From NCBI RefSeq assembly GCF_026151205.1, contig NC_087079.1, positions 4,545,230 through 4,609,229 on the forward strand: a stretch of 64,000 bases of DNA. Direction: 5' to 3'. The notes under the pieces were generated by a model that ran no database searches, was not told the DNA's origin, and saw only the letters and a program-made list of their open reading frames with translations. This DNA is from Bolinopsis microptera (taxonomy: Eukaryota > Ctenophora > Tentaculata > Lobata > Bolinopsidae). A program made the translations under genes and the position numbers. Below are positions 18,104 through 64,000 of this stretch, one piece after another. How positions within the stretch are numbered: position 1 is the first letter of the stretch; each line of letters starts with the position of its first letter.

Positions 18104-21100
18104 GTTAGTGGCACTGCGTGTGTTGTTGTGTACTGTAGAATTACTTGTGATGTCGTGATTAGAATTCAAGAGATGTTATCCTTCTGTAATGTATGAAATC
18201 GAGTCGTTATTACTAAGCAAGAAAGTAGGATTTCAAATCTGATCTCTAATGTTTTTCAGATGAAGTCAATGCACTTCAAGACGTAATACTGGGCAAAACA
18301 AGAATGATTGATGCCGTCTCGAAAGAACGAGAAGAAGTGGTGAAAGCTTTGGAAGAAAAGAATAGTATCGAACAGAAGCTGAGAAGATCTGGCAACACCA
18401 GCATGCTTAGGATCTCAGGGTTGGAGGAAGAACTGTCAAACACCAAGAAGATCGTGAGTATGTTAATGTAATTTCAAGTAAATCGTATATTTTCAAGTTC
18501 GGAACTCTCTTCATAATAGTTTTTATCGGGAATCAATGTTTGCTTTAGACTTCGATTTATCACTATCCAGTAACACTAAGCCAAAGTTTCCAGCTTAATA
18601 AGTAATAACGTGATACATAATAATTAATAACACTGAGCATGAAGCAAAAGATACAAAAACCTTATTTAAGTTAACCCCAGTCTAATCTCGCTACCAGCTG
18701 GAACAGCGCACTAACGAGCTAACAGCAGCTTGCTTCAAGCACTACGCACTGGAACAGGAACTGTCCATGTACAAGGTGGACGCTAGGTTCAGAGATATTG
18801 GTCTTCCCCCAGATGTTATGGATACTGTGAGTTATCTCCTGGAAATGATACTGGATGTTGTACTTATTATATATTATTATAATGTACTTATTATATAATA
18901 TGTTTTTTACAAAAGTTCCAGACAAATTATTGTCTGATCAACATTGTATTGTAAGTTAAATGAGTCTTTTAGTGGATGGTGATTTTCTGGGTTCAACAGA
19001 AAGATACCTTGAATAGCAATACTTGACAAAAGGGGATGCAGCTGTGTCGATATTCAATATTCATGTGATAATTACGTTCTTGGTTACTAATGACAAGGAG
19101 ATTAGGCAGCTGATCATGAAAGTTGCACCTTTTCCCTTATTACATGGTCTGTTATCCCTGTACAGAAGGCTGAATATTAGTACCCTAAAACATTGAGAGC
19201 TCAGAACACCTGTCATCCAGCTTTAACAGTGGTGGCCACCACTCACCTTATGGCTTATTTCTATGTTAATGATATTCAGAATTCCATATTTTCTCGTTGT
19301 CTCGTTTGCTATTGCTGTTTGTTGATGAGATGGTGGTAACAATTTAACGGTGACCTGAGTCTACGTTTTTAAGCTAGGTAGGGTGTTGAATATAAACTAT
19401 TTTAATACTTTCAACACTACTATATAACAAATAATGTGAGGCTCTAATGATGTAGTTTTACGAAGATTTCAAGCTTTAGTCTTACGTATGTTTTTCCCTT
19501 CGTTTCCAAAAGCGTTATGTGAATATAATTAAGCTATGTAGAGTGTTGAATATAAACCATGTGGCAGGCACTGAATGAGTACGTAGAGGAAAGTGGCTAC
19601 GTCAGTAAAGCTCCTCTTTATCCTGTGCAATACGACATGAGGATACCGGGTACGTTCACTTTCATTCACACTTTCACTTTCACTTTCACTTTCATTCACA
19701 CTTTCACTTTTACTTTCACTTCCACTTTCACTGTTATTCTTTCCTGATTTCCGGGGGAAAACTCCGTGTTTCCATCTGAAATCTTTATCAGTTTTCTTGT
19801 TAATGTTCGTGTATTTGTGTATTTGTTAATTATAACCCTTTTGTCAGGACACAGCGAGAATATAGAGCATTACAAGGATAATGACTACACAGAACCAATA
19901 CCTGATGATGGGAGGACAGACTTGCTGGAACAGCAGATTAGAGATAAAGAGCGGGATAAACGCAAATGTTAGTTTGTTAGAATTTGTTAGAATTTGTTAG
20001 AATTTGTTAGAATTTGTTAGAACTTGTTAGAATTTGTTAGAATTTGTTAGAATTTGCTAGAATTTGTTAGAATTTGTTAGAATTTGCTAGAATTTGCTAG
20101 ATTTTGTTTGGATTCGTTAGAATTTGTTAACATTTTTTACAATTCGTTAGAATTTGTTAGAATTTGTTAGAATTTGTTAGAATTTGTTAGAATTTGTTAG
20201 AATTTGTTAGAATTTGTTAGAATTTGTTAGAATTTGCTAGAATTTGCTAGATTTTGTTAGGATTCGTTAGAATTTGTTAACATTTGTTACAATTCCTATG
20301 GTTTAGTGTTTTGTCATAAACTTGGATGAAATATTAAGGTCTAAATTCAAACATAAAAATATTCCGTTCCATTTCAGTGGAGAAGAGGTTAGCAGAATTG
20401 GAAAAAGAGCTGCAAGACAAGCAGCAGAGTCTTGATGAAACACAGAAACGTTTAGATGAAATTGAGAAACAGGTGGGCTTTCGAACTATTGGTTTTAATA
20501 TTTTCTCAATACTTCTATCTTAATTAATCCATCAAAAAAAGGTGCAGTATGATCGGAAAATGTTATGAATGTAATATCCCATTTGCAGCTGGCTGAAGAA
20601 AAGAAATTGAGAGACGAGATGGATATAGAAATGGAACTAAAGAACGAGGAGTTGGAGCACTTGAGAGATGTTGAGAAACGACTCAAGGATGCAGAGGCAG
20701 AGGTCAGTCTTTATATAGTACAGTACATTGTAATTACATTGTAATAGTACTACTTAGCTTAAATTGTGTTTGTTATTTTTGATAAAAACTAGTAAGCCAT
20801 TTTACAAATTCTTTCGTTATTGACTTACAGATAACGTAAAGTCGAAATATCCATCTGCCATCATAGCATAGCTAAACTACATGCATAAATAATTATGATT
20901 CATAAATTGCATAACTTGGTGTTGTCTATGTAGGAGTCATGAGTCTAAGAGTTGTAATTATCAGGTGGATGATTTGCACGCCTCATTGAATAGTAAAGCT
21001 AGAGACGTCAAGGATCTCAGAAACGCTCTGACGATGACCAACGCTACTGGCATGGAGCTGGTATGTGTTGAAACACTCCACATTTTGCTACTGAAGTTGT

Positions 21101-24100
21101 TAATTACCTTACGACGAATCTGTATTTTTGTGGATCTTTCGACCGTTATTTCAAGTCCGAACTGTCCCAGATGTTCATATGACAAATTTAATCCTATTTC
21201 TCTTTAGGAGCATATGAAAGCACGTCTGAAGAAGAAGGAAGAAGAGTTGGAGAAGGAGAGAGCAGCTCACGAAGAGGCACGGCGAGGGTTCCAAGAGAAA
21301 CAGCGCGAACTACAGCGCAGAGCGTCCCAACTGAGCAAGTGTGTAGTAATGAGTAATAATATGACAGAACGAAGGACGTTATTTGGGCTTTTTGCTAAAA
21401 TAGCTGACAATCATTTGAGCGAATGTCAGTCTGCTTATTTCAACGCAGTTTTCAGTACCCACCATAAGTTGGAATTACCCCACTAATTACCCCACTAATT
21501 ACCCCACTAATTACCCCACTAAATACCCCACTAACACCACCCCCATAGATCTGCCAGTGAAGCGGACATGTTACGAGCAGAACGGGATGCTCTGCTCGAC
21601 AAGTTGGATGATCTGCAGGGACAGCTCCGTGAAGGGGACGAGGAGCGGGCCGACTTGGAGGGGGAGCTGGACAGGGTGAAGAGGGATCAGAACAAGTTGA
21701 GACGGGATGCTAGCTTCGTTCATAAGGTAGACAAATTCTTACGTCTCTTTATTGAAATTAGTATTGATATCAAGGCTTAGTAGAACTTAACATGCAATCT
21801 CTCGGGCGGGCGAAATCTCCAGAGAGGCTCGCAAAACTTAATTATTATTAAGATATTATAGATTGTAGATCCTACAGTACAGAGTTTACCGTGTTTTGCT
21901 ACGTTTAGCTTTCGTACCCTCTGTTCACCTTGTGTACCGTTGTGGGGTAGGAGAATTGTGCTAACTATGATATCACAGATGTTTGAGGACAAAGAGACGG
22001 AGACTGAGGTGCTGGTAGGAGAGCTGGACAGGACTAGGGATGTTGTCAACGCTCTCCAGGACGAAAATAGAGAACTCAAAGTTAGAATTTAAACTTTAGA
22101 CTTTTCATGATAAGTGTCCTGCCCTTTTCCACTACAGCCTTATAGAGGACTGAATCGTTTCCTTTCATTTAATTTTCTGAACAACCACAATTCAACAGGA
22201 TCAAGCGATACAGGCACTATCCGAAAGTCTTCGCCCAGAAAACGAGATATTACACCGCACTCTTGATGAGCTTGAGAAAGCTCAGGCAGAGAATGCACGA
22301 CTCATGAGAGAGCGCAGAGGATCCTCCCCAAACCTGGCTCGAGAAGCTCTCAGACTCAGCAGAGACAGGGTTGCAGATCTCGAGGTACATTCTCAGTGTG
22401 ATTCTTGTAGAACTTGGTGAATTTGTCTTGCCTTATTGAAGTTCATATGAGCACATCACAATTAAATAAAGGTGTGATCTGCTCATATTTGATTCGAATT
22501 TATGTTAACTTATTGAAGTTCGAATCTAAGTGGACTCATATTATATTCGGATTTCAAATTGAAATAAGTGATTTGGATTTACCATTAACTCTAATGGCAG
22601 GACGAGAATGCAGAATTACGTGACATATTGAGGGGAACACACGGGAACACACTGGATCCAGAGGATCTGGCCCGCAGAGTGCTAGGATTCCTAGAGGGTA
22701 GACTTCCTAAATATACTGATTCTCAACCTGTCAAAGAGAGTCTAGATCTTCTTCCTATCATCAAAGTTAGTCGGAAAAGAGTATTTTTAATTGATTAAAC
22801 TCGATGTTAGCTTCAGATACTGCTGATTTTCTCTGACTAATTATCATTTATCACCTTAAGCATAGAATCTATTGTTATCCAGGCTATAAACTGATGATCT
22901 TCAAATGTCCCCACTATAAGCCTGAGTTATTTAGTAGACGGACTAGTACCTAGCAGTGGCAGCAGGTGTTAAAGATAATATTTCAATCACCGTTACCTTG
23001 GTAACGTACACTGCACTCCACAGTTGATATCTGATTGGTTTAAATTGTCAGTTGTAATTGAGGATATCTGTCATGTTAAACTGGATTCCATATTATCATG
23101 TTCAAGCTAGCAAGCAACGTTCGGGAGAGATTAGCTAAAATTAGACAGAATAATGTTGCTCTGTAAAACTGGTTAAATGAGACAATTACATGACAGAGCT
23201 GCCACCTTCAAAATAATATTATGTGCATATTTGCAATGCTGTTAAATTCGCACTAAACGTATTATTCGAATTAAATTCGCGTACGATTTTTTTTCTGAAA
23301 ATTGCCGCATTTAAAAAAATATACCAAATACGGAAACAAGAAATCACGTGCCCGCATCAAAATGTTCACGAAAGTTGGCTTTGTATGGTGGAATATTGCC
23401 AAAACATATGCTTCCCGCAACACGTGCGTGCTTACTGGTTAGTGACTAGCGTGGGTACTGACCAAGATCGCAAGGGGTTAAATTTAGGTCATACCCGAAG
23501 ACGTTATGCAATGGAGTAAACTAACTTCTCCTAAAATAAACTTGAAATTACTTAATTTCCTCCACAGTCAAGTCTATTTTTCGAGATTTGTAAGTTTGAG
23601 ATGTGAAGTATAACGTCAGAATTCACATATAATTCAACTAGATAATAGTCTCGAGAATGCTGCGAGTTCCCACAGCCGCATTTTTACCGAATTTTTCGCG
23701 CATTTTTTGGCGAATTCAACAGCCCTAAAAATTAAAACTTGAAGTTGTAAATTGGCGAATTATTCGCGTACTTTTTGAGAACGCCTTACTTTTTGACGAA
23801 AATTTGGCGAATTTAACAGCCTGGCATATTTGTACTGGTCACATATTTGTACTGGTCACATATTTATATTGGTCACATATTTGTACTGGTCCCATATGTG
23901 TACTGGTCACTAGACCGGTTCATAAAACAAAAATGTTCTTGAATAATTACCAATATGTTCTTATCTGTTGATCCCTAGGTTCAAATACCACCAAAAAAAA
24001 TTTCAAGTTCCAACTCTTCCATATTTTATTGGTTTCTTATACAGGTAAAATATCTAGAATCGGCTTTTTTAGTATGAAGGAGTAATGTTGGCTGTTTAAG

Positions 24101-27100
24101 ATTCGTTATTCAAATATAAATGTCATAAAGGCATTTCGTTTAATGTGGGTTTTAAGTTCTGGTGATGATGGGAACCACGCCCTTTGGTGACCACGCCCAT
24201 TTTAGAAAAATAAGTCATACAAATTTCGGAAAACCGTATTTTTTTAGTTTTATTTAATGGTTTTGATGTATAACCCTCTATGAATGAAAGATACTGATTT
24301 TTTGAAAAGAATCAAAATTATATAATAGCAAACAACATATATCACACAACATATATCACACAACATATATCACTGTTTAATACAGCTTCTTCAGATCTTC
24401 TTTAGTCTTCAAGGAATACTTTCGGCAATGTGATTCCACAACGAGCATCAGAACTTAAAACCCACATTAAACGAAATGCCTTTATGACATTTATATTTGA
24501 ATAACGAATCTTAAACAGCCAACATTACTCCTTCATACTAAAAAAGCCGATTCTAGATATTTTACCTGTATAAGAAACCAATAAAATATGGGCGTGGCCG
24601 GAGCGGGACTAAGATGGAAGAGTTGGAACTTTTTTTTGGTGGTATTTGAACCTAGGGATCAACAGATAAGAACATATTGGTAATTATTCAAGAACATTTT
24701 TGTTTTATGAACCGGTCTACTGGTCACATATTTGTACTGGTCACATATTTGTACTGGTCACATATTTGTACTGGTCACATACTGGGCTCCCTTACTGCCC
24801 AGTAAACTTGGCATCATGCCCAATCCGGCTATTATGTAGTAATCTTAAAACTTCATCTTGCGTCCGCGGCCTAATACGATAGAACATCAGTTATAGCTTT
24901 CTAGAGCAGCGCTAATATAATATAATACGTTATCCTGCAGTTGTTGTTAGAGGAAAGAGATAAGAGGAGGGAGCCGGTAATCAACAATCAGAACCCACAG
25001 GTTAACCCCCTACTTTCCTTATCAATATACTGGTTATAGATTGTGCTAAATCATACGGTCTGTTTCTCGCATTAAAGGTCCGATCAGAATAATCCGGCAT
25101 AAATTAGGTAGAAAGTTAGTGTGGGTGAGAAGCTAGTGAAATAACTGTCAAGTGTCATGCTACAGACTTATTATAAGACGAAGTCTCGATACGGTATTAG
25201 GTAAAGCGACCAAGTTTCTACCTATAAACTAACTGTCTTATCTCCCAGTATTCTCAGGACCTTATCAGACTGTTAGAGGACCTGATCAAGGACAGGACCA
25301 GACAGTCTCCCCAACCTCAGCAACTGCCCATCATCAACGTTAACGTGCCTGAACAGGTAAAAATATCTAAATTAATTAGCTTTATGTAATTAATTATGTA
25401 ATTAATGAGCTTTATGAAATGGTAACGTATGTTTGACAGTAGATAACGTATGTTACACCTTGCAATAATTTACTGATAATAGGTATGGTAATTCTGAGTG
25501 TTAGCGTATGTCAAGTTCATAACGCTGCAGAACAACTACTTGCATCACTTCTCCACAGTTTAATTTATCCTTTGCAGGAATCATGCACCACTTTCTTATT
25601 ACTTCATAGGTTCCATATTTTTACTCGGAATATATTATTTCATTAGGTTTGACCGTCTCGGTTGTAATTTGGAGTACGATTTGAGATAAGGCTGTAAGTG
25701 GTTAGCTAGCTCCTGCTCTCCTTGGCAAGGTTCTGTCCCTGTTACAGTTTTAGGGTGTTGGTACAAGGTGTTACTAGGTGTTGGCTAAATCGCACAAATT
25801 CGTGTTAAGCATTAAATTTCAAGCCGTTTGACCTTCTTTATCTTGTCTGCTGAAATTGGACCTGGCCAAATTCGTCCAGATTCAGTTTTAACTAATATAT
25901 AAATTTAATCAGCTGAAATTTCTTATCTTCAAATTTTCTGTCCGGATGTTTGGTGGATTCTATGTAATTAATTGGATCTCCACCTTTAAAGAGGCTACCT
26001 ATGTGTTGAATAGCATTCAGTCCTGCTGTTTCCTAGCATACGAGTCTCCTTCTCGACCTTCTGTACTTTTAGTAACTCACTTTTATACTAACTTTCATGC
26101 CACCAGATATTCCCCTTGAAGCTCTGTGTTAGATCTTAATCATTACCTTACTCATGCCACCAGATATCCCCTTGAAGCTCTGTGTTAGATCTTAATCATT
26201 ACCTTAGATCTTAATCATTACCTTACTCATGCCACCAGATATTCCCTTGAAGCTCTGTGTTAGATCTTAATCATTACCTACTGTAACTCATGCCACCAGA
26301 TATTCACCTGAAGCTCTGTGTTAGATCTTAATCATTACCTTACTCATGCCACCAGAAATTCCCTTGAAGCTCTGTGTTAGATCTTAATCATTACCTTACT
26401 CATGGCCATCTTTTTATATCTCTATATTGTAGACTTTTTTATCAACGAATTGCTGCTGTTTAAATATACAATTTATTGCGCAGGATGAAAGTTCTTTTTC
26501 TTCTTGTCTCATGCTTTGCCCTCTCTCTGGCCCAGTATGGGGACCTCGAAGGCAATGCATTTGAAGTGTTGGAGCAGTCTATGGCCATGGGTATGGAATG
26601 GGTAACATCCTTTATAAAAGAAAATGTGTTGAGTGAGGACGGTACCTCTTTCAACCCGATGGTAAACGGCATGCTGGTCATGGTGGAACCTCAGATCTGC
26701 CCCGTGCAATCAAACCAGTGTTCGTCCGGTGAGAATTGGCTTTTTGGATGCAAATGTGTGAAGGAGTTCCGAGCACTCGGAGATTGCAAAGCAAAGCCGT
26801 GTCAACTCTTCAGGCACTATCGGGAGAGCGGACCTGCTGCCCTCAACAGCTTCCTCAACTCTGAGTCTTATGAAGAAAGGTACCAGATTATCATGAAGTA
26901 CGTGTTTGATCCTATCTCCCGTGCTCTCTGTGAATGTCCGGGTATGATCGGAGCTTCAACAAACTGCGCGAGGAACTACGATGGCACATTGTTCACGTTT
27001 ACACGAATGGATAGAGCTCAATTCGACAGTGTGGTTGAAGAAATTGACTGGAAGGCATTGAAAACGATACTTCACGGCTGGGTTAAGGGAGGTTGTGGCG

Positions 27101-36100: not shown

Positions 36101-36658
36101 TATGATATTATTCTCTTACAGAAAAGTATCCAACTCCATTACTTCAAGCCATTTGCAGAGTGACATTTAGCAAGCCATCAGTATATTTTGTATATAATAG
36201 TGTAATAGTAAGGTGATACTCCAGTACAAATTATACACAGTACTGTTTGTAACGCGCCTGACCTCACATGCCCCATTAATGGAGCCCGTTGCCATGGAAA
36301 CTGTGAACTCTGACATGTTGTCTCACGTTTTAATTTCATCCCCAGCATTATTACCCCATCTCTGATACATGATGCATTGTCCGTTGGTTGATTTGATTCA
36401 CGTCATGCTTTGCAACTCGATCCCTTGGTTTTCATCCAGTAATTCTGTTCAAATACTGGGCGGGATCTGTTTAGCAATAAGTTGTGCAACTCTGTCGATA
36501 CCCGTATTACTACCTCTTTTATTTCTCCCAAGATAAGCTGCTCTTTGTCGGCACTTTGCCTGCTTGTATATGTTGCAAAGATGCGACCTAATTGGCGAAT
36601 GATTAGCTGGTGGCGTGCTGATCCATTAAGGTGCAATGTATTTTGTGTAGAGACTCTT

Positions 36659-36746
<88 letters not shown>

Positions 36747-37400
36747 CTACATAATACTGTGTTGTGTAGAGAGTGCGACATAATAATAATATGTTGTGTA
36801 GAGACCTGTAATGTGTTCTTATTCTGTTGATTAGTAGGATGAGGTGTAATGTACTAGAGGAGCTGTTGTTGTAATGTGTGCTTGTTACCGGGCTGTGGTA
36901 CATTATGCGCATCAGCTCTCCCTTCTTCTTGCTCTTGTATTGTGTAGAACCTAGTGCATGATTATCACCCTTAGATCTAGTGAAATACAAGACGTGTTGG
37001 TTAGGTTGCTAGATAGCAATATATTGGAGTTTATACTAAGTTTCCATTTCATTAATCCATCTGGTGCTCTTATATTTGTGGCCCTTATCAGAGTTCTTAT
37101 TGACAAGCAATACATGGCTAATGACCGTTGTGAGATTTTCTGACTCTCTAACTTTCTGTTCTGCGCATTGTTTGTTTGATCTCTCAAAAGCTTGTTTCAA
37201 AGATAATGCTTTTATTCGTTTGAATGTGTATATCTAAAAGTTTGTTTGCAGCGATAGGAATTTTGTTAGTTGTCAACTGAGAAAGATGGCTGCTGCTCGG
37301 CAAAAGGGCCAGCATGTCATAAGAACGAGTAAGTCTCCAGAGAATTGTACTCAGCAAGCCATTACATCCTTTTTCCCCACATTAATGCTCTGGATGGTTA

Positions 37401-37432
<32 letters not shown>

Positions 37433-55400: not shown

Positions 55401-58400
55401 GAAGCGTCTGTTATGCTGCGCGCGACCCTAGCCATGTGTTAATTAATTACAGTGAAGTTCCTCCTTCGCAAAGTTATTTTCCGCAATTTTCTGGATTCAT
55501 TTATTGTTGATGCGCGCGGCGCTACATCGGTCAAATAAATCGTCAATTTTTACCATGCGCGAATCCCACTCATTTATTATTTTTTCCAGTCACACTTTTC
55601 ACTCGAAAGAATTAATGGTACAAGATACAAGTACATCGTAGGGAAAATTGATCGTGCGTGGTTTTATTTAACCGCGGCGAAAATTCTTGTTGGATGTGTA
55701 AACTAATTTAAACGCAAAACATCATGAGGAGATAAAGAGAAGATTTACAACAATCAAGAAACCAAAAATGGTGACATAGGTAATAACGCTCCAACCGTAC
55801 TGAGTTTCCAGAATCTCGGAAAATTCTATAAATCTGCAACAATGTCGTAATTTTTCAGAAAGGCGTGGTTCCTACTCTTACTTTCACGGTAGATTTAGAC
55901 GACTATTAGCAATAGTCTATTACTAATGCTATGCTACTCAAAACACATGTTCATTTCGTGACTCGTCTATTCTGTGTCCCAGTCACGTCAGGATTATGTA
56001 GTATATGTTTTCTAGTTATATAATAACACAGTAGCAGTGAAGTAATACTAACGTCTAAAATACCTAAATAGCTAAATACTGCACTGACGACTATTTCTAA
56101 TAGTCGTCAATGATCAGATGTGGATCTATTTTAAAACCAGAAATAAGATGATGATGTTGCTGCGCTGACGTGTTATCTTAAATAGCAAGTTAGAGCTGTT
56201 ATCTAAAAGCGGAAACGACTGAAATCTTTAAATGTAACGTCAGCAGAAACATTTAAAATGAAAGATTGAAACCAAGATTTATTATTTATCATCGATGATT
56301 CGCCCGTTTATTCAGTGAATGTTCCACGGTTGATTGATTGGGACTGAAGGATGAGACAATATTTACGAGAAAGAAATGTAATGTACAATAATAATATTAA
56401 TGGTTAAGATATTTGAAAGTCTACCTAATAAGAAAAGATAATAAAAAGGCACTACACAATGGCATGTCCACTTATCGATATATGCATGGTATCTTAAAAA
56501 TTGGCAAAAGCTTAGCACTAATGCATGTGAAGACTAACTGGTCATGTATACAAAACAAAAGAAACTAAGATACTTATACACTAACTGGACTACCGTATAT
56601 TCAGATGTTGACAAAACTCAATTAATATGGTGACTGTCTAAGCACTAAGAACGCAAGTTAACTCATACAACAATTTTATCAACACAACAAATGGCACCAT
56701 TTTGGTTTTGCGACTCTTTAGACTTTTAGATTATTGACCAAATCTATCTGCTTGTGTCTCTGTTCAGGGGAGCGGTCAAGAAAATAGTTTTGTTGATCTA
56801 AACGAATTTCAACTTTCTTGCATTATTTAACTTTATATGGCTTGCATATTATATATATTTTATATGGCTTTCTTGCATATGTATGGCTCAAAAAATCACT
56901 GCTAGTTTCTTAAACAAATCTTTCGCTCCACAGGTCCATGGCGGAGAACAAAGCAACAGAAAAAAGAGCAGTAGAAACGTTGAGGCAAGAAAGTGAGGAG
57001 CTGAGAAAAACTATATCAGACCTGAACCTGCAGCGGGAGCAGATGATACATGAGGTATGTAGAACTACTAAATCTTATTATCCACCGCAGATTTTGTCGT
57101 AGTGAAATAATGTACTAGTTAGGGCAAGAATTGCTGTTTATGGGTCAATCTGTGAACAAATTCGTAACAAAGGTTTGTCTACAGGAATGTGTTGTCCATA
57201 GTCCCAGGAACCACCAAAAAAAAACCGTCCAGCTGAAACTTTTGGGCAAAAATTTTTATAGTCATTTTTCTCCAGGAACCCATACGCCCCACCCCTAATA
57301 TTGGTTATTCGGCTCCCGAAGGTCTTGAGATCTCCATAGGGGGTGCAAAATGACCGCAATGGCCACATTATGGCAGGCGAATGATAGTTTCAGAACGATT
57401 GGAGCTTTATTTTTCGAAATAAATGGAATTTTTCGAATTTTTTCTCAATTTTATTGAAATTTCGAAAAAAAAACACCAAATTATTTTTAACGCTTATTTC
57501 AAATCTATTTAAAAACTTATCTACAAATAACAAATACAGTTAATCTAAAATGTGTATTCTCAGTAAGTACCATGACAATTATTAATACACAGTTAATATT
57601 AATCAAAATTCGCTTGTTCTTCAGGTTCATCATGTCTAATGTTTGTGCAGTTCATACCATGGCATCGTCCACAAGCTGGCAAACAATTGAAGCCATATTT
57701 CCTACATGAACATCTGAAAGTCAAACAGGCCTGTTCCACATCGACAGAACAGTTACAACATATAAGGTTCATATGAGGAGGATAACTGAGGAGGAGGAGA
57801 AGGACTGAGGAGGAGAAGAGGGATCCAGGAGGAGAACCCAGGAGGAGGAGGAGGAGGACTGAGGAGGAGGACTAAGGAGAAGGAGGACTGATGAGGAGGA
57901 TGAGGAAGAGGGTGACTGGGAGAAGGACTGAGAAGGACTGAGGAGGAGAATGCGGACTGAGGAGGAGGAACCAGGAAAAGGAGGAGGAGGAGGACTGAAG
58001 AGGAGGACTGAGAAGGCGGAGGAGGACTGATGAGGAGGATGAGGATGAGGAGGAGGGTGACTGGGGGAGGACTGAGGAGGAGGGTGACTGGGGGAGGACT
58101 GAGGAATATGAGGAAGACTGAGGAGGAGGAGGAAGAGGAGAAGGACTGAGGAGGAGAAGGACTGAGGAGGAGAAGCAGGAGGAGGAGGACCCAGGAGGAT
58201 GAGGACCCAGGAGGAGGACCCAGGAAAAGGCCCCAGGAGGAGGAGGAGGAGGACTGGGGAGAAGGAGGACTGTTGAGGACGAGGAGGAGTGAAAGAAGGA
58301 CTGAGGAGGGGAGGAGGAAGAGGACTGATGAGGATCAGGAAGACCCAGGAGGAGGAGGACCCAGGAGGAGGACCCAGGATGAGGAGGAGGAGGACTGAGG

Positions 58401-61400
58401 AGGATGACTGAGGAGGAGGAGGACTGAGGAGGAGGAGGAGGACTGAGAAGGAGGAGGACTGAGGAGGAGGAGGAGGAGGAGGAGGAGGAGGAGGAGTGAA
58501 TAGGAGGAGGAGGGGGACTGGGCAGGACTGAGGAGGAGGAGGACTGAGGAAAAGGATGAGGAGGAGGACTGAGCTGAGGAGGAGGACTGAGGACTGAGGA
58601 GGAAGAGGAGGAGGATGAAGAGGAGGTGGACCTAAGAGGAGGAGGTCCCAGGAGGAGGACTCAGGAGGAGGAGGAGGATGACTGAGGAGGAGGACTGAGG
58701 AGGACTGAGAAGGAGGAGGACTGAGGAGTACTGAGGAGGATCGCTGAGGAGGATCGCTGAGGAGGATGGCTGAGGAGGATGACTGAGGAGGATGACTGAG
58801 AGGGAGGAGGAGGAGGACTGAGGAGGAGGAGGAGAAAGAGGACCCAGGAGGAGGACTCAGGAGAAAGAGGAGGAGGAGGACTCAGAAGGAGGAATGAGGA
58901 GGACTCAGAAGGAGGAATGAGAAGGAGGAGAACTGAGGAGGAGGAGGAGGAGGACTGAATAGGAGGAGGAGGGGGACTGGGGGAGGACTGAGGAGGAGGA
59001 GGACTGACGAGAAGGATGAGGAGGAGGACTGAGGAGAAGGACTGAGGACTGAGGAGGAAGAGGAGGAGGATGAAGAGGAGGAGGAGGACCCAGGAGGAGG
59101 AAGCATCTAAATGTTATTTCAATTTTTGTTATTTTTTGTCCGTTTTTGTCCGTTTTTTTCCGCTTTATTTTTTGTCCGTTTTGAAAATATGGCTGCCAAA
59201 CGGACAAAAACGGACAAAAAACATGATCCCCCCCCCCCCCCCCCCCCCCCCCCTTTAGAAGCAGGAAGCAGAGTTATTTTCTCTGATAGATCCTGAATAA
59301 ATTTAGTCTTAAAGTTAACACCTATATTTTCGTTCACACATTTGTTGATGTAACCTTTCAAGTCTACTAGTTCCTCGTCGTAAACTTCTTCCTCTATAAT
59401 GAAACAACAAATAAAAAAGAGCGGCGTCGATCAGAAAGTGGGCTCTCAACGCTTTATAGTAAGATCCTCCATCCGATATATGCTTGACGTCTCCAGGATA
59501 CACGAGTTTGATGAGCTCCTCTAAACCCGAGTCTGCCATTATATAGCCTATGCAGCCAAGAAAACTCGTGAGAGTGTGGAAGCCCCCAACCCTGACCACA
59601 ATAGGCATCCCAGTTTCCAGTACTATTCGGGTGGCCTTAATCCACACATTGGCAAATCGAATGTGATTATCATCGGCTCACTGTAGGATAACTTAAGACA
59701 TTCAACCAGAGTAGCATGTGCCGTCGAATAGCTGTCTGGGGGTTGGTCAATAATCTGTTGTTTGTTAGTTAACCTTGATATTTGTTAATTGAAGTTATTT
59801 CCCGAGTAAGATTTGAAATAAGCGTTAAAAATAATTTGGTGTATTTTTTTCGAAATTTCAATAAAATTGAGAAAAATTTCGAAAAATTCCATTTATTTCG
59901 AAAAATAAAGCTCCAATCGTTCTGAAACTATCATTCGCCTGCCATAATGTGGCCATTGCGGTCATTTTGCACCCCCTATGGAGATCTCAAGACCTTCGGG
60001 AGCCGAATAACCAATATTAGGGGTGGGGCGTATGGGTTCCTGGAGAAAAATGACTATAAAAATTTTTGCCCAAAAGTTTCAGCTGGACGGTTTTTTTTTG
60101 GTGGTTCCTGGGACTATGGACAACACATTCCAGTAGACAAACCTTTGTTACGAATTTGTTCACAGAAAAATCAACTCTTGCCCTAACTATACGTGGATGG
60201 CCGAATGATTGCTTCAGAGTTTTTATTCTGTGCGTTTGCTTTGTAAAAAAGAAATTACAGTAAAGAATTATACAAACTGTATTATGAAACAAAAGAATGT
60301 AGCAACACTGTATCAGAAATGTATTAAAGGCCCATACACCAAATCTGTCCAGCCCAAATGACTACACATGAAGTTCAATGACCATCTTGCAACCATCTGT
60401 TTTGGTGTATGGGCCTTAATAATATAGTTTTTGTATGGGCCTTAAGAATGTATCAACACTTTAAACGTGGAGACTGTAGTCATAATTGTGTAAAACGTGC
60501 TTCTAAAGAAAGTTTTTCTTAAAGAAATATCTTCCGCGGAAAGATTTTCGCAATAGAATAAAGAAGTAGCGTGTGACGTTGCAAGTTCTAACGAATAATG
60601 AACTACACTGAAAGTATTTTAGTATGAGAAGGTGGATCCAGTGATTGATAAAGAACATTTAAAATGGCATTTTTTCTGTATCATGTGACTTGTTCATGGC
60701 TTAGAAACTAACAAAAAAATGATTTTTACAAGTGGCTGTTGTCTTCTTGTATTTCAAACAAAGCATTCCGATTTGTTTAAACTGGTCAAAGTTAATGGCT
60801 TATATTCTTTATCAATGTAAGTCAGTCTTTGGTCTGAATATTTCGTCCATTTATATTCGCCTTATTTCACGGAAACATTATTTGTAAGATTTTTGCGTAC
60901 AGCACCGTTTAAAGTTTTTTAAAACAGTCAACTTCTAGTGGGATAAATCTATGTTTCGTTCTTGAAAATCGAATCTAGTCGTTCAACTTAAAATTGTCCA
61001 CTCTTACCTAATGACTGTAATACCAAAATTAACATAATTCAATCCCTTAAATAGTTTGTATTTCAGGCTGCACAAACTCAACTAAACCTCAAACATGAAC
61101 GAAGAGCCTTTGAAGAAGAAATGAGGCAGAAGAAACAAGTGTTCGAAGAGACGAGCATTACAACAACCACGGTTCACATTGCTTTTATTTATTTTATCGT
61201 TCAACATGAAATAAAATGAATTGAGATCATGATATTATGTCTGTATCCGTGTGATATTATTAGCAAACTAACACAAGGATATTAACTACCTTTAGCGGCT
61301 GGCTGCTACATATCTCTTAACTCTAAACTAACACAAGGATATTAACTACCTTTAGCGGCTAAACTAACACAAGGATATTAACTACCTTTAGCGGCTAAAC

Positions 61401-63581
61401 TAACACAAGGAAGTTAACTACCTTTAGCGAAACTAACACAAGGAAGTTAACTACCTTTAGCGGCTAACACAAGGAAGTTAACTACCTTTAGCGAAACTAA
61501 CACAAGGAAGTTAACTACCTTTAGCGGCTAACACAAGGAAGTTAACTACCTTTAGCGGCTGACTGCTACATAAACTAACACAAGGATATTAACTACCTTT
61601 AGCGGCTGACTGCTAACACAAAGAAGTTAACTACCTTTAGCGGCTGACTGCTACATAGCAAACTAACACAAGGATATTAACTACCTTTAGCGGCTGACTG
61701 CTACATATCTCTTTATAAGCTATCGATAAAACCATTATAATATTCTGAATTAAGTTTGCTGTATTTGAAATTATTCTACTAGATTCTCCCACTATATAGT
61801 GAAAACACTATATAGTGACAAGCACTTTATAGTGACATTCTGTAAATTCCAGGAAATAAGCGATATTACCGCTTTCTTTCCAATTAGCTGAAGTCACATA
61901 CATCAACCTGGTATTCCAGGCAGATTGATCTGGATTCTTAAATTTCCGGTACAATCAATCAACTTTACCGTACTAGTTTCTCAGAAATAAGACTAAAGAC
62001 TGGGAAATCCGAGGAGACTATAATCTGAATAGTGACTATAAGATCATGCACTTTGTATTCGGAACACCTTCCAACGTGTACGTACTTGGATCACCGAAGT
62101 AAAATAAGTGTCTTGATTAACCAACTCCTGACAGTACACGGAATCATAATTTAAAGAATTAGTAAAGTGGAGTAAAGTAGAATTAAAGTAAAGTAGAGTG
62201 GAGTGAAAAGTAAAGAAAAGTCGATATAAGATTAACCTGTCACTATATGGTGCTGTCACTATATAGTGCGTTTTGCACGCTATATAGTGACAAATATCAG
62301 CTGTCATTATAAAGTGCTTGTCACTATATAGTGTTGTCACTATATAGTATATAGTGCGATTACCATTCTACTACATTCTATCATTGTATAATCGCACCTT
62401 CTGATCACATAGCTGACAAAGGCATTGTCTAATGTAGTAAAATCTATTAGGAATGGTTTGTCACCGAACAAGGACACGTTGAACGGAAAATTTTAGACTG
62501 AAGGGTTCAAGCAAATACCAGAAAACTCAAAAGCGTTAGTTGTAAAGCGAGAAAGTACTCAATGTAGCAATTTGTATGAACTAGTGATAAGAGCCAAGGT
62601 CAAGGGGATCCATGTACCGAAATATCCATGAAACTTAATACCCGTCCTAAATAGAGCAATGCCAAATTCGTCAGAACTGGTAGTGGTCTATCTAATCACC
62701 CAATTAACAAAGAAGAACATTTGAACGAATGAGAAGCGGGAATCATTGCCAAGTTATTCCGTTTGAGCTGCTATCACGAGTTGCGATTACGTTATTTCTA
62801 TGTGACTGGCAGAGTTCCAGGAAATAGCGATTGGAATTACTAATAATAACGTGGCATTGTGCTAGCAATCTATGATTTGTGGTCGCGTACTAGGTCTATT
62901 GCGACCACAGATCAGGCATTCCTAAAATTAGAATATTTCTAGAAATTAAAAAATCAAGTTGTACATGTTACCTCACGTGGAATTGAGAGTTCAAAGAAAT
63001 ATTCAAGAGAAATTGAATTCTGTAACCTAGCAAACGAGCACGGAACATCCTAGCATCAACACTAACTCCCAAACGATCTATTTATAAATTACAATTTCAG
63101 TTCTGAATCATTTCTATGAATAGCTAAGGTATTCTCTCTACACCCCAAAGTAATCTAATTTCTGATCTTAACAACTGCCTATCGAATAAGAGAGACAGAG
63201 TTCAAAGGATAAAGTTACAACGAAGCCAATTTATCAATACGGCCGATTAAGACATGTTTGCATCATAAAATTTGTATACGTCATAATAATGATGCCATGA
63301 CCTAATAAATGTAATCTCTCCCGGGTTCCCAGAACACGATGTTCTGAGAAGACCATCTCACTCTCTCATTCACACCATTATATCTTGTTGTTTCAGCGGA
63401 AGGAGCAGGAGATCTCGGGTTTAGAAACACGCCAAAGGGAGCGGGAAGCAGCGCTGACCGAGCTGGACGGACAGATACGGGAGAGACAGACTCAACTTCA
63501 TCAGCTCAAGTTGGAGGAGACCCAGAGTGAGCGGCAGAATGAGATGCTCAAGCAGCAGTTGGACAAACAAATTGAGAACAG
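14062..63581 (+). CDS. CNTRL: Centriolin (CNTRL) orthologue, N-terminal 32 exons, continues beyond window
   Basis: Centriolin is a mother-centriole and midbody scaffold with an N-terminal leucine-rich-repeat module and a very long coiled coil. Exons I can place: 14062-14131, 14254-14423, 15236-15394, 17148-17261, 17914-18103, 18260-18453, 18698-18826, 19568-19649, 19848-19967, 20378-20472, 20589-20702, 20965-21060, 21208-21338, 21549-21726, 21979-22080, 22199-22384, 22601-22765, 24941-25000, 25249-25356, 28778-28875, 29113-29269, 29476-29587, 34288-34403, 35221-35353, 37845-38047, 38237-38286, 39090-39171, 48748-48897, 49182-49285, 56934-57054, 61067-61171, 63397-63581. All junctions are AG/GT with matching phases, 4,079 coding bases with no stop. 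Characteristic similarities to vertebrate centriolin, from memory, are YITERLIKK near the start, ALEQELSMYKVDARF, and ELDGQIRERQTQLHQLK in the last exon. The last exon ends in phase 2, so more exons follow. Exon 31's donor (GTTCAC) is weak. Confidence 0.88.
15395..16473 (+). mobile_element. RLE-encoding (R2-like) non-LTR retrotransposon 3' ORF in centriolin intron 3
   Basis: An uninterrupted frame (about 358 codons within the intron) ends at 16471-16473. It contains a CCHC knuckle CKLCGDKLGTVPHILAGC (C-x2-C-x8-H-x4-C), the basic RYRWRHDKVL segment, and RPDLV followed 14 residues after PD by the glutamate of WELTVP. Together these match the restriction-like endonuclease that follows the reverse transcriptase in R2/NeSL/Hero-type elements (CCHC, then PD-x12-14-D/E). 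The reverse transcriptase is missing, so the copy is 5'-truncated, yet the endonuclease frame is intact. The 3' untranslated part probably continues to about 17,000. The upstream start of the open frame overlaps exon 3 in a different phase and is accidental. Confidence 0.8.
18260..22765 (+). CDS. CNTRL: Centriolin exons 6-17: first coiled-coil section
   Basis: Twelve short exons encode charged heptad-repeat sequence rich in Glu, Lys, Leu and Arg. Exon 7 contains the most conserved stretch (ALEQELSMYKVDARF), which sits right after the leucine-rich repeats in vertebrate centriolin as well. Exons 8 and 9 encode the less helical SGYVSKAPLYPVQYD and YTEPIPDDGRTD linker. Exons 10-16 are continuous coiled coil. 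Exon 17 breaks it with a LDPEDLARRVLGFLEGRLPK segment, similar to the LVRPEEVAARVDELRRKLK region of the human protein. Phases: exons 6 and 7 end in phase 0, 8 and 9 in phase 1, 13 in phase 2. Confidence 0.88.
19656..19735 (+). repeat. CACTTT hexamer array at the start of intron 8
   Basis: Hexamer repeats CACTTT/CATTCA begin within 7 bases of the exon 8 donor (GTACGT at 19650). Confidence 0.85.
19968..20300 (+). repeat. Decamer array GTTAGAATTT starting in the exon 9 splice donor
   Basis: The intron opens with GTTAG and immediately becomes about 30 copies of a 10-bp unit that includes GTTAG, with a few GCTAG variants and a duplicated diverged block. The 5' splice site is thus itself part of the first unit. 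Confidence 0.9.
21478..21530 (+). repeat. 13-bp tandem repeat (CCCCACTAATTA) just before the exon 14 acceptor
   Basis: About five copies of a 13-bp unit end roughly 20 bases upstream of the CCCATAG acceptor of exon 14, forming part of its pyrimidine-rich region. Confidence 0.85.
23822..24785. repeat. 17-bp tandem repeat (CACATATTTGTACTGGT) interrupted by a foldback element
   Basis: Copies at 23822-23910 and 24720-24780 flank the element 23911-24719, so the transposon landed inside an existing array in intron 17. Confidence 0.8.
23911..24719. mobile_element. Foldback element with about 260-bp inverted arms in centriolin intron 17
   Basis: TAGACCGGTTCATAAAAC at 23911 is inverted at the right end (24702-24719), and the arms pair to about 24166/24449. 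The right arm has an extra GC-rich segment (around 24590-24615) not present in the left. The 280-bp centre has no gene. The insertion sits in a 17-bp tandem array, so the target duplication cannot be read. Confidence 0.8.
24941..29587 (+). CDS. CNTRL: Centriolin exons 18-22: linker and coiled-coil section
   Basis: Exons at 24941-25000, 25249-25356, 28778-28875, 29113-29269 and 29476-29587. Exon 19 is amphipathic (YSQDLIRLLEDLIKDRT) followed by a Pro/Gln-rich turn. Exon 20 is Ser/Pro/Arg-rich and likely unstructured. Exon 21 ends with a basic cluster KEKKNKRKR. Exon 22 (VPDVLVLDKRRDK...) ends in phase 1 at GTGAGT. Lower helix propensity here resembles the proline-rich interruption in the middle of the vertebrate protein. 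The intron between exons 19 and 20 (25357-28777) contains a separate gene. Confidence 0.8.
26095..26402 (+). repeat. 57-bp tandem repeat upstream of nested gene
   Basis: About five copies of a unit containing CATGCCACCAGATATTCC and CTCTGTGTTAGATCTTAATC, one with a partial internal duplication. It ends about 80 bases before the nested secreted-protein gene. Confidence 0.85.
26485..27603 (+). CDS. Secreted cysteine-rich protein, nested in centriolin intron 19
   Basis: The frame encodes 372 residues from the ATG at 26485, with no intron. The N-terminus MKVLFLLVSCFALSLAQ is a clear signal peptide with cleavage probably after ALA. The mature part has about 20 cysteines, in pairs such as CKC, CEC and SCC, and one NMT glycosylation site. 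It has no transmembrane segment or anchor. The start is preceded by GCGCAG, an acceptor-like sequence one base upstream, so the 5' leader may be spliced on; the frame upstream (TTG) is not used. I do not recognise the family. The gene has the same orientation as centriolin and lies wholly within intron 19. The base composition is more GC-rich than the flanks, as expected for coding sequence. Confidence 0.82.
   Translation: MKVLFLLVSCFALSLAQYGDLEGNAFEVLEQSMAMGMEWVTSFIKENVLSEDGTSFNPMVNGMLVMVEPQICPVQSNQCSSGENWLFGCKCVKEFRALGDCKAKPCQLFRHYRESGPAALNSFLNSESYEERYQIIMKYVFDPISRALCECPGMIGASTNCARNYDGTLFTFTRMDRAQFDSVVEEIDWKALKTILHGWVKGGCGEKNGKDCVAELSDMFSISGRWLDNTFKGEDSCQSLIRLEEEFTVYMETAFSFNMTTDTVKSVANQFMDVYSDMQRKSLCDPSCAAEVMDSFYSCCVKHSIEVTLSKPMRKNYQKLFRNMWGLFSEEKVPNLNSAVNKYLAMMDLDGFCKDQTNVYGERNEECESLGA
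27604..28777. other. Remainder of centriolin intron 19
   Basis: AT-rich 3' flank of the nested gene, followed by a 26-bp tandem repeat (28388-28472, about three copies of a unit with GCAACGTTTTTGCGTCC) and a duplicated segment with AACCTAGTACCCTAGTACAG (28657 and 28728). No gene is seen. Confidence 0.6.
28888..29045 (+). repeat. CACGTG-containing repeats in centriolin intron 20
   Basis: Degenerate 10-14-bp units of the type TAACACGTGACAAG fill most of intron 20. They contain about nine CACGTG palindromes or close variants. Confidence 0.85.
29584..29643 (+). repeat. 33-bp tandem duplication of the exon 22 splice donor
   Basis: TTTGGTGAGTTTGATCATGT at 29584 (last exon bases plus donor GTGAGT) recurs at 29617. 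The first copy is the donor that keeps the phase; the second is a ready-made cryptic donor. Confidence 0.85.
29865..33310 (-). CDS. LDLa-repeat class A GPCR, antisense and nested in centriolin intron 22
   Basis: Three exons (33310-33253, 33086-33003, 32842-29865) join with correct phases into 1,039 residues. Exon 1 encodes the signal peptide MFREIFLFALLLGSSALG. The ectodomain (to about residue 555) has several LDL-receptor class A-like modules; the clearest pair is CVEHSRVCDLQEDCEDGSDE and CDSHIDCSDHSDEC near residues 488-546, with calcium-binding acidic clusters. Seven membrane helices follow (about 562-927). TM6 keeps FCWVPF (CWxP) and TM7 keeps NSLINPMVY (NPxxY), but TM3 ends MTWLSLLQV with no DRY. 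The loop between TM4 and TM5 is about 100 residues. The C-tail has an acidic serine cluster (SSSDSSESEEESETES) likely to be phosphorylated. The layout resembles relaxin-receptor/GRL101-type receptors, but I see no leucine-rich repeats. The ligand is unknown. Confidence 0.88.
34288..39171 (+). CDS. CNTRL: Centriolin exons 23-27
   Basis: Exons at 34288-34403, 35221-35353, 37845-38047, 38237-38286 and 39090-39171. Exons 23 and 24 are amphipathic helices (EVASIRQGIREAATQT; AHLRSGVTAAEREIDMLRDV). Exon 24 ends at a GTCAGT donor in phase 1, and its final A joins AG of exon 25 to give lysine. Exon 25 encodes HNRSLHNLQEVLREAI and a basic RDRPRD section. Exon 26 is short (50 bases). Exon 27 has a small cysteine cluster (NCLHCTNCKRND), unusual in a coiled-coil protein. 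Introns 23, 24 and 27 are dominated by simple arrays. Confidence 0.8.
34420..34475 (+). repeat. 12-bp repeat GTGACGTAAGAG near the exon 23 donor
   Basis: Three to four imperfect copies start within about 25 bases of the exon 23 donor GTAAGA and repeat the string GTAAGAG. Confidence 0.7.
34557..35204 (+). repeat. Decamer array GTTCTATAAA, about 60 copies, end of intron 23
   Basis: Near-perfect 10-bp tandem array that stops 16 bases before the exon 24 acceptor. The left edge is diverged, and two GATCTATAAA variants are 390 bp apart (34761 and 35151). Each unit contains TATAAA. Confidence 0.95.
35354..35572 (+). repeat. AGTAGTACAGT array beginning at the exon 24 donor
   Basis: Repeats of AGTAGTACAG with TTAG variants start 6-10 bases after the donor GTCAGT. 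The minus-strand Tyr/Leu/Cys-rich open frame here is an artefact. Confidence 0.85.
36660..36744 (+). repeat. (GA)n microsatellite
   Basis: About 42 uninterrupted dinucleotides. Confidence 0.95.
37402..37580 (+). repeat. Tandem duplication carrying poly-G runs
   Basis: Two copies of a unit consisting of poly-G followed by about 63 bases ending in GAGGTAAATATCATGG. Run lengths differ (about 29 and 23 G). Confidence 0.85.
39961..41000 (+). repeat. 54-bp minisatellite, about 19 copies, containing branch point and 3' splice site
   Basis: Each unit contains TACTAAC followed, 33 bases after the branch adenine, by CTGTCCTCTACAG or CTGTCCTCTATAG. This is the arrangement of a metazoan 3' splice site with the optimal branch sequence. 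Units are 90-100% alike. Most carry TATAG rather than TACAG after the first seven. Confidence 0.95.
41165..41200 (+). CDS. CNTRL: Candidate centriolin exon adjoining the 64-bp array (uncertain)
   Basis: After an acceptor CGTTTGCAG the sequence reads SFYQKVDNYIAA in phase 0, which fits the preceding exon's frame. It then runs into the first 64-bp repeat unit, where the frame stays open to a TGA at 41252. Possible donors (G|GTCAGA, phase 1, or CT|GTGAGG at 41250, phase 2) do not match the phase 0 start of the next sure exon (48748). The exon may be skipped, may need extra repeat-derived exons, or may no longer be used. Exons 27 and 28 join in phase without it. Confidence 0.4.
41197..48460 (+). 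repeat. 64-bp minisatellite, about 113 copies (7.3 kb)
   Basis: The unit starts AGCTGGTCAGACAGACAGTC and ends GTGAGGCGTG. Copies differ mainly at a few sites (TTATTGTAG/TTATTCTAG/TTATTTTAG, GGTGCAG/GATGCAG, CAGCTGT/CAGTTGT). Six copies lack 14 bases and read CAGCTGTTCAGAC (ends near 43560, 44057, 44683, 45181, 45743 and 47648). Each standard unit holds an acceptor-like CCTACTTATTNTAG, 21 bases, then a donor-like GTGAGG. The first unit begins in a candidate exon. Confidence 0.95.
48748..63581 (+). CDS. CNTRL: Centriolin exons 28-32: distal coiled coil, gene continues to the right
   Basis: Exons at 48748-48897, 49182-49285, 56934-57054, 61067-61171 and 63397-63581. All are strongly charged coiled coil (KVKLELAETMNVKMEKGSLE; ELLEINDRIAESE; VETLRQESEELRKTI; HERRAFEEEMRQKKQ). 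Exon 32 (ETRQREREAALTELDGQIRE) resembles the part of human centriolin around residue 1,800, so roughly a quarter of the protein lies beyond the window. The donor of exon 29 (GAGAG|GTAAGA) is copied about 12 times by a tandem array. Exon 31's donor is uncertain (GTTCAC, or GTGTTC 33 bases earlier). Confidence 0.82.
49252..49664 (+). repeat. 34-bp array of exon 29 end plus splice donor, about 12 copies
   Basis: The unit AGATAAACGACAGAATAGCT then GAGTCTGAGAGGTA consists of the last 30 exon bases or so joined to the first donor bases. The array starts inside the exon and runs through the intron. Nearly every copy keeps GAGAG|GTAAGA (a few GAGAAGTAAGA or GTAATA), so a dozen equivalent 5' splice sites follow the genuine one. 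Confidence 0.95.
49665..50914. other. Centriolin intron 29, left part
   Basis: AT-rich. Downstream (3') flank of the nested minus-strand gene. No gene or repeat family recognised. Confidence 0.5.
50915..52666 (-). CDS. Unrecognised four-exon gene, antisense and nested in centriolin intron 29
   Basis: Exons 52666-52440, 52183-51689, 51505-51412 and 51244-50915 have proper AG/GT junctions (GTAGTT, GTGAGC, GTACGT donors) and phases that join to 381 codons plus stop. The start is the first ATG (MRFLANKSDLSSAHYC). Exon 1 ends with a short cysteine motif NCPCWAPSSNARCC across the junction. Exon 2 has a basic, proline-rich part (PPNRKRRKTPTGSPK, a possible nuclear localisation signal) and then beta-rich KKFVMIQVFERD text. 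Exons 3 and 4 look globular (VEFKRQFGKGIRLFCRRGE; FYGTKATSDWQEIKHQ). There is no signal peptide and no membrane segment. It may be a nuclear protein, but I cannot name a family. A TATA box lies about 80 bases upstream. Confidence 0.65.
52743..52756 (-). promoter_or_regulatory. TATA box of the nested four-exon gene
   Basis: TTATATATAAC on the minus strand lies about 80 bases 5' of the start codon, which would place transcription start near 52,720. It is the only strong TATA motif near the start. Confidence 0.45.
52760..56933. other. Centriolin intron 29, right part
   Basis: About 4.2 kb of AT-rich sequence. Short frames only, such as 55322-55510, none convincing. No TIRs or arrays noticed. 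Confidence 0.45.
57775..59105 (+). repeat. Purine-rich (GGA)n/(ACTGAGGAGG)n tract, 1.3 kb
   Basis: A degenerate array of GGAGGA, GGACTGAGGA and GGACCCAGGA units, almost free of pyrimidines apart from the CT/CCC of the motif. It lies inside the TIR element. Ser/Pro-rich minus-strand frames here are artefacts. Confidence 0.9.
59228..59253 (+). repeat. Poly-C run inside the TIR element
   Basis: About 26 consecutive C preceded by an inverted pair of CGGACAAAAA/TTTTTGTCCG motifs (59146-59220). Confidence 0.85.
60190..61066. other. End of centriolin intron 30
   Basis: AT-rich. No gene or element recognised. Confidence 0.5.
61262..61705 (+). repeat. 36-40-bp tandem repeat in centriolin intron 31
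   Basis: About twelve copies of a unit containing AACTAACACAAGGATATTAA and CTACCTTTAGCGG, with length variants (GGCT, GGCTGACTGCTACAT). Confidence 0.9.
61790..62348. mobile_element. Palindromic CACTATATAGTG element
   Basis: CACTATATAGTG and TGACAAGCACTTTATAGTGA at 61790-61837 are inverted at 62302-62347. Further copies of the 12-bp palindrome lie at 62236-62291. It looks like a small TIR element. The target duplication is unclear because the ends are self-complementary. Confidence 0.55.
62349..63396. other. End of centriolin intron 31
   Basis: No gene or repeat recognised. Confidence 0.5.
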
Positions 63582-63616
63582 GTGAGGGGTATAATAATAT
63601 CACACTACAATGGTGT

Positions 63617-63680
63617 TATGGTACAATATGGTACAATATGGTACAATATGGTACAATATGGAACAATATGGTATGTATGG
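63617..63680 (+). repeat. GTACAATATG decamer repeat after the exon 32 donor
   Basis: About six copies start 35 bases downstream of the GTGAGG donor. The rest of the window (63681-64000) is intron with nothing recognised. Confidence 0.85.
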
Positions 63681-64000
63681 TACAATGTAATAGCCATTCA
63701 GAGTCATCTGGTGTGTACCACGAAAAATTTGTGTGTGTGAATACAAGCACAAAAAATGAATGCTAAAGCTAACAAATTATAACTGCAATATTTAACATTT
63801 GAGCTTATAGTCTATCGGCCTGTAATAGAGTAATAGCACTATATTATAATAACACTGTGTAAGCTAATAGCACTCACATACAGTCTAAAGTCTTAGAGAT
63901 TAGTAAACACAAGGCTTCATCACAACGTGCTGTTTAAAGAATGTATCTGTCAGATGTCACCTGCTTCATGCTGCATACCAGTGACCAGTCTGGCTATACT

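Follow-up and report, generated by a model that had tools for sequence, protein, structure and literature searches.

Minisatellite arrays beside predicted splice donors in a centriolin-like gene of the comb jelly Bolinopsis microptera

The Locus and Its Tandem Arrays

The stretch of DNA analyzed here (the window, 64,000 nucleotides, positions 4545230-4609229 of contig C8 in the 264.65-Mb, 232-contig genome of the comb jelly Bolinopsis microptera) carries a centriolin-like (CNTRL) gene, and the subject of this article is the position of minisatellite arrays in its introns relative to the splice donors (5' splice sites). The gene has a Pfam LRR_4 match (E 2.1e-14), and the predicted combination of leucine-rich repeats (LRR) and coiled coil fits centriolin by domain order alone. 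It was read by hand as 46 exons and 45 introns that agree in phase and keep the reading frame open; 30 exons were taken from within 17914-63581, 4 from upstream, and 12 from the 40 kb beyond the window. Small exons may have been overlooked in this reading. Two exons (39937-39972 and 41165-41179) are doubtful, their ends having been fitted to phase, and for the latter an alternative donor is possible at 41203. Exon 3 was entered with its end at 15396, while its donor actually follows 15394; that intron is free of arrays.

Arrays were called by Tandem Repeats Finder (TRF), which after merging gave 65 arrays spread over 26 of the 45 CNTRL introns. An earlier note made from the letters of this DNA (the sequence-only reading) had described arrays just past the donors of seven exons. 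The TRF calls and the hand-read exons agree with this description and extend it to 12 donor-adjacent arrays in the window, which start between -31 and +43 nt from the donor. The exon numbers used in that reading match ours for exons 8, 9, and 14, but not always for later exons. The gene, the donor-adjacent arrays, and two arrays ahead of acceptors are as follows:

14062..63581 (+), centriolin-like (CNTRL) gene with LRR and coiled coil; exons 1-34 of 46 read, extends past the window
14134..14174 (+), 19-bp unit, 2.1 copies (TRF); starts 2 nt past the exon 1 donor (14131)
19655..19732 (+), TTCACT-based 30-bp unit, 2.2 copies (TRF); begins 5 nt past the end of exon 8 (19568-19649)
19973..20294 (+), donor-like 10-bp unit, 32 copies; begins 5 nt past the end of exon 9 (19848-19967)
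21473..21534 (+), 12-bp unit, 5.2 copies (TRF); stops 14 nt ahead of exon 14 (21549)
25382..25406 (+), 12-bp unit, 2.1 copies, weak (score 50); 25 nt past exon 25249-25356
28910..29034 (+), 14-bp unit, 8.9 copies (TRF); 34 nt past exon 28778-28875
29313..29345 (+), 14-bp unit, 2.5 copies, weak (score 50); 43 nt past exon 29113-29269
34429..34479 (+), 11-bp unit containing ACGTAAGA, 4.8 copies; 25 nt past exon 34288-34403
34556..35208 (+), 10-bp unit, 65 copies; stops 12 nt ahead of exon 35221-35353
35356..35570 (+), 11-bp unit, 18.7 copies (TRF); 2 nt past exon 35221-35353
39961..40996 (+), 54-bp unit, 18.9 copies; straddles the donor of the doubtful exon 39937-39972
41197..48462 (+), 64-bp unit, 115 copies; directly after the doubtful exon 41165-41179
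49182..49285 (+), exon whose final 31 bases lie within the first unit of the next array
49255..49662 (+), 34-bp unit, 12 copies; straddles the donor, GT kept in 12 of 12 copies
63617..63686 (+), 10-bp unit, 7.1 copies (TRF); 35 nt past exon 63397-63581

Clustering of Arrays at Donors

An array was counted as donor-adjacent if it starts no more than 45 nt from a donor or straddles it, and as acceptor-adjacent if it ends no more than 45 nt from an acceptor. This limit was taken from the distance of about 40 bases given in the sequence-only reading, and was set after the table of arrays had been inspected. Many introns are short, and in some most of the length is array. The null model therefore removed array length from each intron before placing the arrays uniformly, keeping 6 nt free at donors and 25 nt at acceptors; it assumes that arrays are independent of each other.

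Across the 45 introns, 16 of the 65 arrays are donor-adjacent against 5.49 expected (P 3.8e-7), whereas 2 are acceptor-adjacent against 2.81 expected (P 0.81). The excess at donors is retained when both doubtful exons are removed (14/63 vs 5.06, P 4.5e-6), when TRF scores of at least 60 are required in addition (10/50 vs 3.95, P 5e-4), and under three other null settings (P 4.7e-8 to 1.8e-6), including one with a 40-nt acceptor reserve (P 1.8e-6). It is also found in introns lying wholly past the window, which the sequence-only reading had not covered (4/18 vs 0.90, P 0.007). A check that uses no intron model gives 13 array starts at 0-45 nt from the donor and none at 46-90 nt.

The claim that random placement in kilobase introns would not produce such a pattern is supported by the overall excess and by introns that retain at least 500 nt after array removal, in which 6 of 52 arrays are donor-adjacent against 0.77 expected (P 1e-4). 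However, it was overstated, as 10 of the 16 donor-adjacent cases fall in introns of less than 500 nt after array removal, where 4.7 are expected. Likewise, the two arrays reported to end before the acceptors of exons 14 and 24 do so, at 14 and 12 nt, but two such cases are at chance level; with 40 nt reserved at the acceptor, the CNTRL comparison becomes 2 against 0.85 (P 0.21). Donor clustering thus holds in the CNTRL gene; no evidence for acceptor clustering was found there, and such clustering may exist in other genes.

Likeness of Arrays to Their Own Donors

For each array, the 18-base sequence centered on its own donor (9 bases of exon, 9 of intron) was scored against the body of the array, with the gene's other 44 donors as controls. 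This test took 61 of the 65 arrays; four with a period below 5 were left out, one of them donor-adjacent (94910). No more than 2 of the 44 control donors score as well as the own donor for 6 of 15 donor-adjacent arrays, compared to 1 of 46 others (Mann-Whitney P 2e-6). An exact match over all 18 bases is present in the arrays starting at 39961 (dependent on the doubtful exon 39937-39972), 49255, and 72885. As these three contain the local exon end, they were most likely born in place. The last of them, 72885-73625, lies past the window and has a unit of 24/26 bp (the TRF period call is 250): 28 anchored copies are mostly 24 or 26 nt apart, and 24 of them carry aag/GTTTGT, the slash marking the exon end. 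For array 35356..35570, 1 of 44 control donors scores equal to its own. The sequence-only reading had stated that the unit itself contains the donor at exons 9, 22, and 29. This is exact for 49255-49662, and for 39961-40996 if the exon is right, but the exon 9 unit (19973) is merely donor-like, with 3 of 44 control donors scoring as well or better. Together with the genome-wide counts of donor-consensus pairs described below, the likeness to the own donor supports the proposal of a duplication process at exon/intron boundaries on the donor side. Lariat copying and reverse splicing were rejected by inference as sources of the arrays, since the units include exon sequence.

The three exact-donor arrays end 168, 7271, and 215 nt ahead of their acceptors, and these acceptors are unlike the arrays (their scores are matched by 12 to 43 of the 44 controls), which argues that the arrays lengthen introns and did not create them. 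This bears on the possibility that the introns originated when exon sequence containing AGGT was duplicated in tandem, with the arrays as leftovers. Intron birth of this kind is well documented in the parts of the literature consulted (PMC3443670; PMC2891723), and the copies here do carry AG/GT. The model as described in the available portion of one report (PMC3443670) shares with the present case a short duplication that holds a splice signal, but it requires duplication of both intron ends. It fails here because the acceptor side is not duplicated, and the introns appear to be older than their arrays. We consider this origin highly improbable.

Alternatively, selection might retain the extra donors, because they strengthen exon definition, serve as donor backup, or allow U1 binding to shield a long pre-mRNA from early cleavage. 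Indeed, GT is kept in 26 of 28 (72885), 12 of 12 (49255), and 16 of 20 (39961) anchored copies, and in the array of the 72764 exon the donor columns contain no mismatch, compared to 4.3% elsewhere in the unit (14 units). However, donor columns are better kept in this one of the three arrays only (3.0 vs 2.2% and 10.5 vs 11.0% in the other two), and intact copies are expected in young arrays regardless. Moreover, donors beside arrays are not weaker than others (P 0.94), leaving the rescue of weak donors unsupported, and array adjacency has no link to intron length (P 0.53, with 15 of the 16 donor-adjacent exons). Selection for extra splice signals, which had been suggested from the letters alone, therefore finds no clear support and seems unlikely to explain the arrays.

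Relation to Known Repeats at Exon-Intron Boundaries

The sequence-only reading knew of no named class for such arrays. However, minisatellite-like tandem repeats spanning exon-intron boundaries have already been named "mirages" in amphioxus, where the passages available to us describe them in the genes for Adh3, the globins BflGb6 and BflGb9, troponin C, and PGBD5 (PMC3087553; PMC3902484). According to the same passages, mirage units measure 10-72 bp in Adh3 and about 150-160 bp in the globins, many copies contain AG/GT, both 5' and 3' exon boundaries can be affected, regular splicing is undisturbed, and the repeats vary in length and are somatically unstable (PMC3087553; PMC3902484). As far as these excerpts go, boundary spanning is shared by the arrays 49255-49662 and 72885-73625, by the array 4437-4546 of a kinase locus described below (L029), and, if the exon is right, by 39961-40996. 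The units of these straddling arrays are similarly short (34, 24/26, 54, and 54 bp, respectively), and the splice signal is present in many copies, as the counts of retained GT illustrate. The remaining donor-adjacent CNTRL arrays differ from mirages in that they merely abut the donor (+2 to +43 nt). Mirages occur on both sides; CNTRL acceptors show no excess (2 vs 2.81), and one acceptor-adjacent array, 34556..35208, resembles its own acceptor, which outscores all 44 control acceptors (best of 45). The present case further differs in its host, a comb jelly, and in the concentration of 16 donor-adjacent arrays in one gene, apparently on the donor side only. Splicing and length instability were tested in amphioxus, whereas the arrays described here come from the sequence of one assembly alone.

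Two other systems are related in part, as far as the accessible text of each paper describes them. Variable tandem repeats in human segmental-duplication genes are minisatellites at exon-intron boundaries that alter gene structure, as here, but they are often exonic or intron-making and backed by RNA, whereas the CNTRL arrays are intronic and lengthen existing introns (PMC2812944). Dual-specific splice sites in UBC and VCX3A likewise have AGGT within repeat units; these repeats are coding and their sites are used both ways, whereas the copies described here are intronic and known from genomic sequence (PMC10809524). With regard to ctenophores, TRF repeats are stated to cover 13% of the genome of the comb jelly Hormiphora in the part of that report consulted (PMC8527503), and no paper on ctenophore minisatellites was found in the literature searched. 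What is new here is thus the phylum, the density, and the donor bias, while boundary-spanning repeats themselves are already known. The donor-biased pattern in the CNTRL gene is real. It belongs to a class that already has a name; its setting is new and its density unusual.

In our view, the arrays are probably mirage-type minisatellites, i.e., tandem duplications seeded at, or partly across, the 5' splice site and grown by ordinary minisatellite turnover. According to this scheme, an initial duplication at and partly across the donor would be followed by turnover that enlarges the array. The original upstream donor would presumably stay in use, such that each added copy becomes part of the intron and the protein is not altered. 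An in-frame stop follows the donor at a distance of 1-95 nt in all 15 exons checked, and the use of a later donor would therefore mostly break the protein; for the exon ending at 72893, the first such stop comes after 63 nt of intron, which would leave the next one or two donors in frame. Shielding of the exon by the first donor could account for the tolerance of arrays, but not for an excess over the deep intron. With shielding alone, arrays at donors would be as dense as in the deep intron and no denser; the rate of duplication or growth is therefore probably raised at donors. A guess at the cause would be, for example, pausing at 5' splice sites under transcription, or R-loops there.

Other Genes and the Genome-Wide Signal

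Nine other gene models (52 introns, 17 arrays) provide a comparison with CNTRL. Pfam backs the condensin, villin, RRM, and EF-hand models and three kinase models; a fourth kinase model (L028) is based on a kinase search match and is free of arrays. Kinase matches were located on contigs C1-C13 and C68. In these unrelated models, seven arrays are donor-adjacent. At the kinase locus L029, the end of exon 4332-4450 and its donor are copied once in tandem (4437-4546, 54-bp unit), and at L027 and L030 arrays begin 6-15 nt into the intron; another exon of L027 (9431-9515), with an array 18 nt on, is unverified and was excluded. The villin model includes several weak exons, among them 42192-42251 (coding score 0) and 42549-42692 (3), and its 2 donor and 2 acceptor matches rest on exons of this kind. 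At acceptors, the nine models give 4 adjacent arrays against 2.58 expected (P 0.21). Outside these statistics, 18 short kinase exon ends were inspected, of which 8 or 9 were judged to be real donors: L041 is the sole case with an array of score at least 50 within 45 nt of the exon end, and L047 has a duplication at the exon end that is below threshold. At the kinase locus L046, the exon donor GATTAG/GTGAGTGTAAT is present twice, the two copies flanking a run of about 20 G.

For the whole genome, pairs were defined as two copies of the donor consensus MAGGTRAGT spaced 8-38 nt apart, with the reversed pattern as control. Donor-consensus pairs number 1682 against 75 reversed, while singles number 10382 against 8307, i.e., 0.162 against 0.009 pairs per single. 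Acceptor-consensus pairs are found 240 times against 85 reversed; since acceptor singles in 354 kb of local sequence already differ (33 vs 17), little excess of acceptor pairs remains. Among the matches listed, all of them on contig C1, 100 donor pairs form 12 clusters and 17 acceptor pairs form 11, and clusters per single site on this contig are about 2.6 times as frequent for donors as for acceptors (acceptor singles being taken from the small local sample). Also on contig C1, 44 donor-consensus copies about 54 nt apart occupy 428573-430919, a spacing beyond that of the pair pattern.

Several results weigh against a donor-based origin, or against its generality. The CNTRL exon ends are predictions. 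For nine of the 15 donor-adjacent arrays, the own donor does not rank near the top in likeness. A generic donor motif is not enriched in the units of the 61 arrays compared (Mann-Whitney P 0.39; 4/15 donor-adjacent vs 4/46 other units at a shuffle p below 0.1), which indicates that the local donor is what matters. Within introns, 9-mers recur more in the donor half than in the acceptor half, yet without a peak at the donor. With a 40-nt acceptor reserve, the acceptors pooled over all genes reach significance (6 vs 1.90, P 0.006). In the nine other gene models, the donor excess is weak (7 vs 4.35, P 0.053), and 5 of 9 arrays are donor-adjacent against 3.04 expected (P 0.11) once the villin model is removed. 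In a 200-kb block of C1, 1 of 59 predicted donors has an array, and this array overlaps a predicted exon; as a gene sample the block is gene-poor, with 30 introns, 6 arrays, and no donor match. Finally, the pairs within one array are not independent and are counted many times, and no donor-consensus pair lies inside the 354 kb read, hence no exon was seen beside one; the CNTRL arrays carry donor variants other than the MAGGTRAGT consensus.

These observations could mean that there is no general rule: arrays might be dense throughout the genome, CNTRL an outlier, acceptor ends constrained, and the genome count the product of a modest number of large arrays, to which the weak result in the nine models, the single C1 donor, and the collapse of 100 listed donor pairs into 12 clusters would all conform. 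However, a constraint at acceptors leaves the drop from 13 array starts to none beyond 45 nt unexplained, donor clusters among the matches listed remain more frequent per site than acceptor clusters, and seven donor-adjacent arrays occur in unrelated gene models. The absence of any general rule is therefore improbable in our judgment. The sample of nine genes and the C1 block is insufficient to prove one, and the whole-genome pair count is the stronger evidence; a donor bias across the genome is likely but falls short of proof. A more far-reaching version, in which 5' splice sites are genome-wide hot spots where minisatellites arise and grow, is possible but tentative. It would invoke either a duplication process specific to donors, which may be linked to transcription or splicing, or some advantage of having tandem donors, and might involve at least 100 tandem-donor arrays and introns lengthened from their 5' ends.

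Other Elements in the Window

Within CNTRL intron 29270-33804, a 997-aa open frame (29868-32858, -) is nested in antisense orientation; Pfam identifies LDL-receptor class A and rhodopsin-type seven-transmembrane domains in it. A further open frame (26485-27603, +), nested within intron 25357-28777, has a signal-peptide-like start but no match in a Pfam search, and an array of 56-bp units (26095-26404) lies just upstream. A reverse transcriptase frame is present at 673-1836 (-; Pfam RVT_1, E 2e-11). The inverted repeat arms 57149-57506 and 59809-60166 (358 nt, 99% complementary) enclose a GAG-rich tandem filler, and the whole structure looks like a mobile element in an intron. Nested inverted repeats (23908-24004/24626-24722 and 24019-24164/24446-24591, 98-99% complementary) have the same 17-bp tandem array at both outer ends.

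Implications

In the portions of the literature examined, mirages had previously been described from amphioxus. The dense, donor-biased, probably mirage-type arrays reported here, together with the genome-wide signal, suggest that splice sites themselves may bias where tandem repeats are born. If true, this would provide a concrete route for the lengthening of introns, and the many arrays that lie beside their founding donors would offer a natural test set for how the spliceosome chooses among tandem donors.

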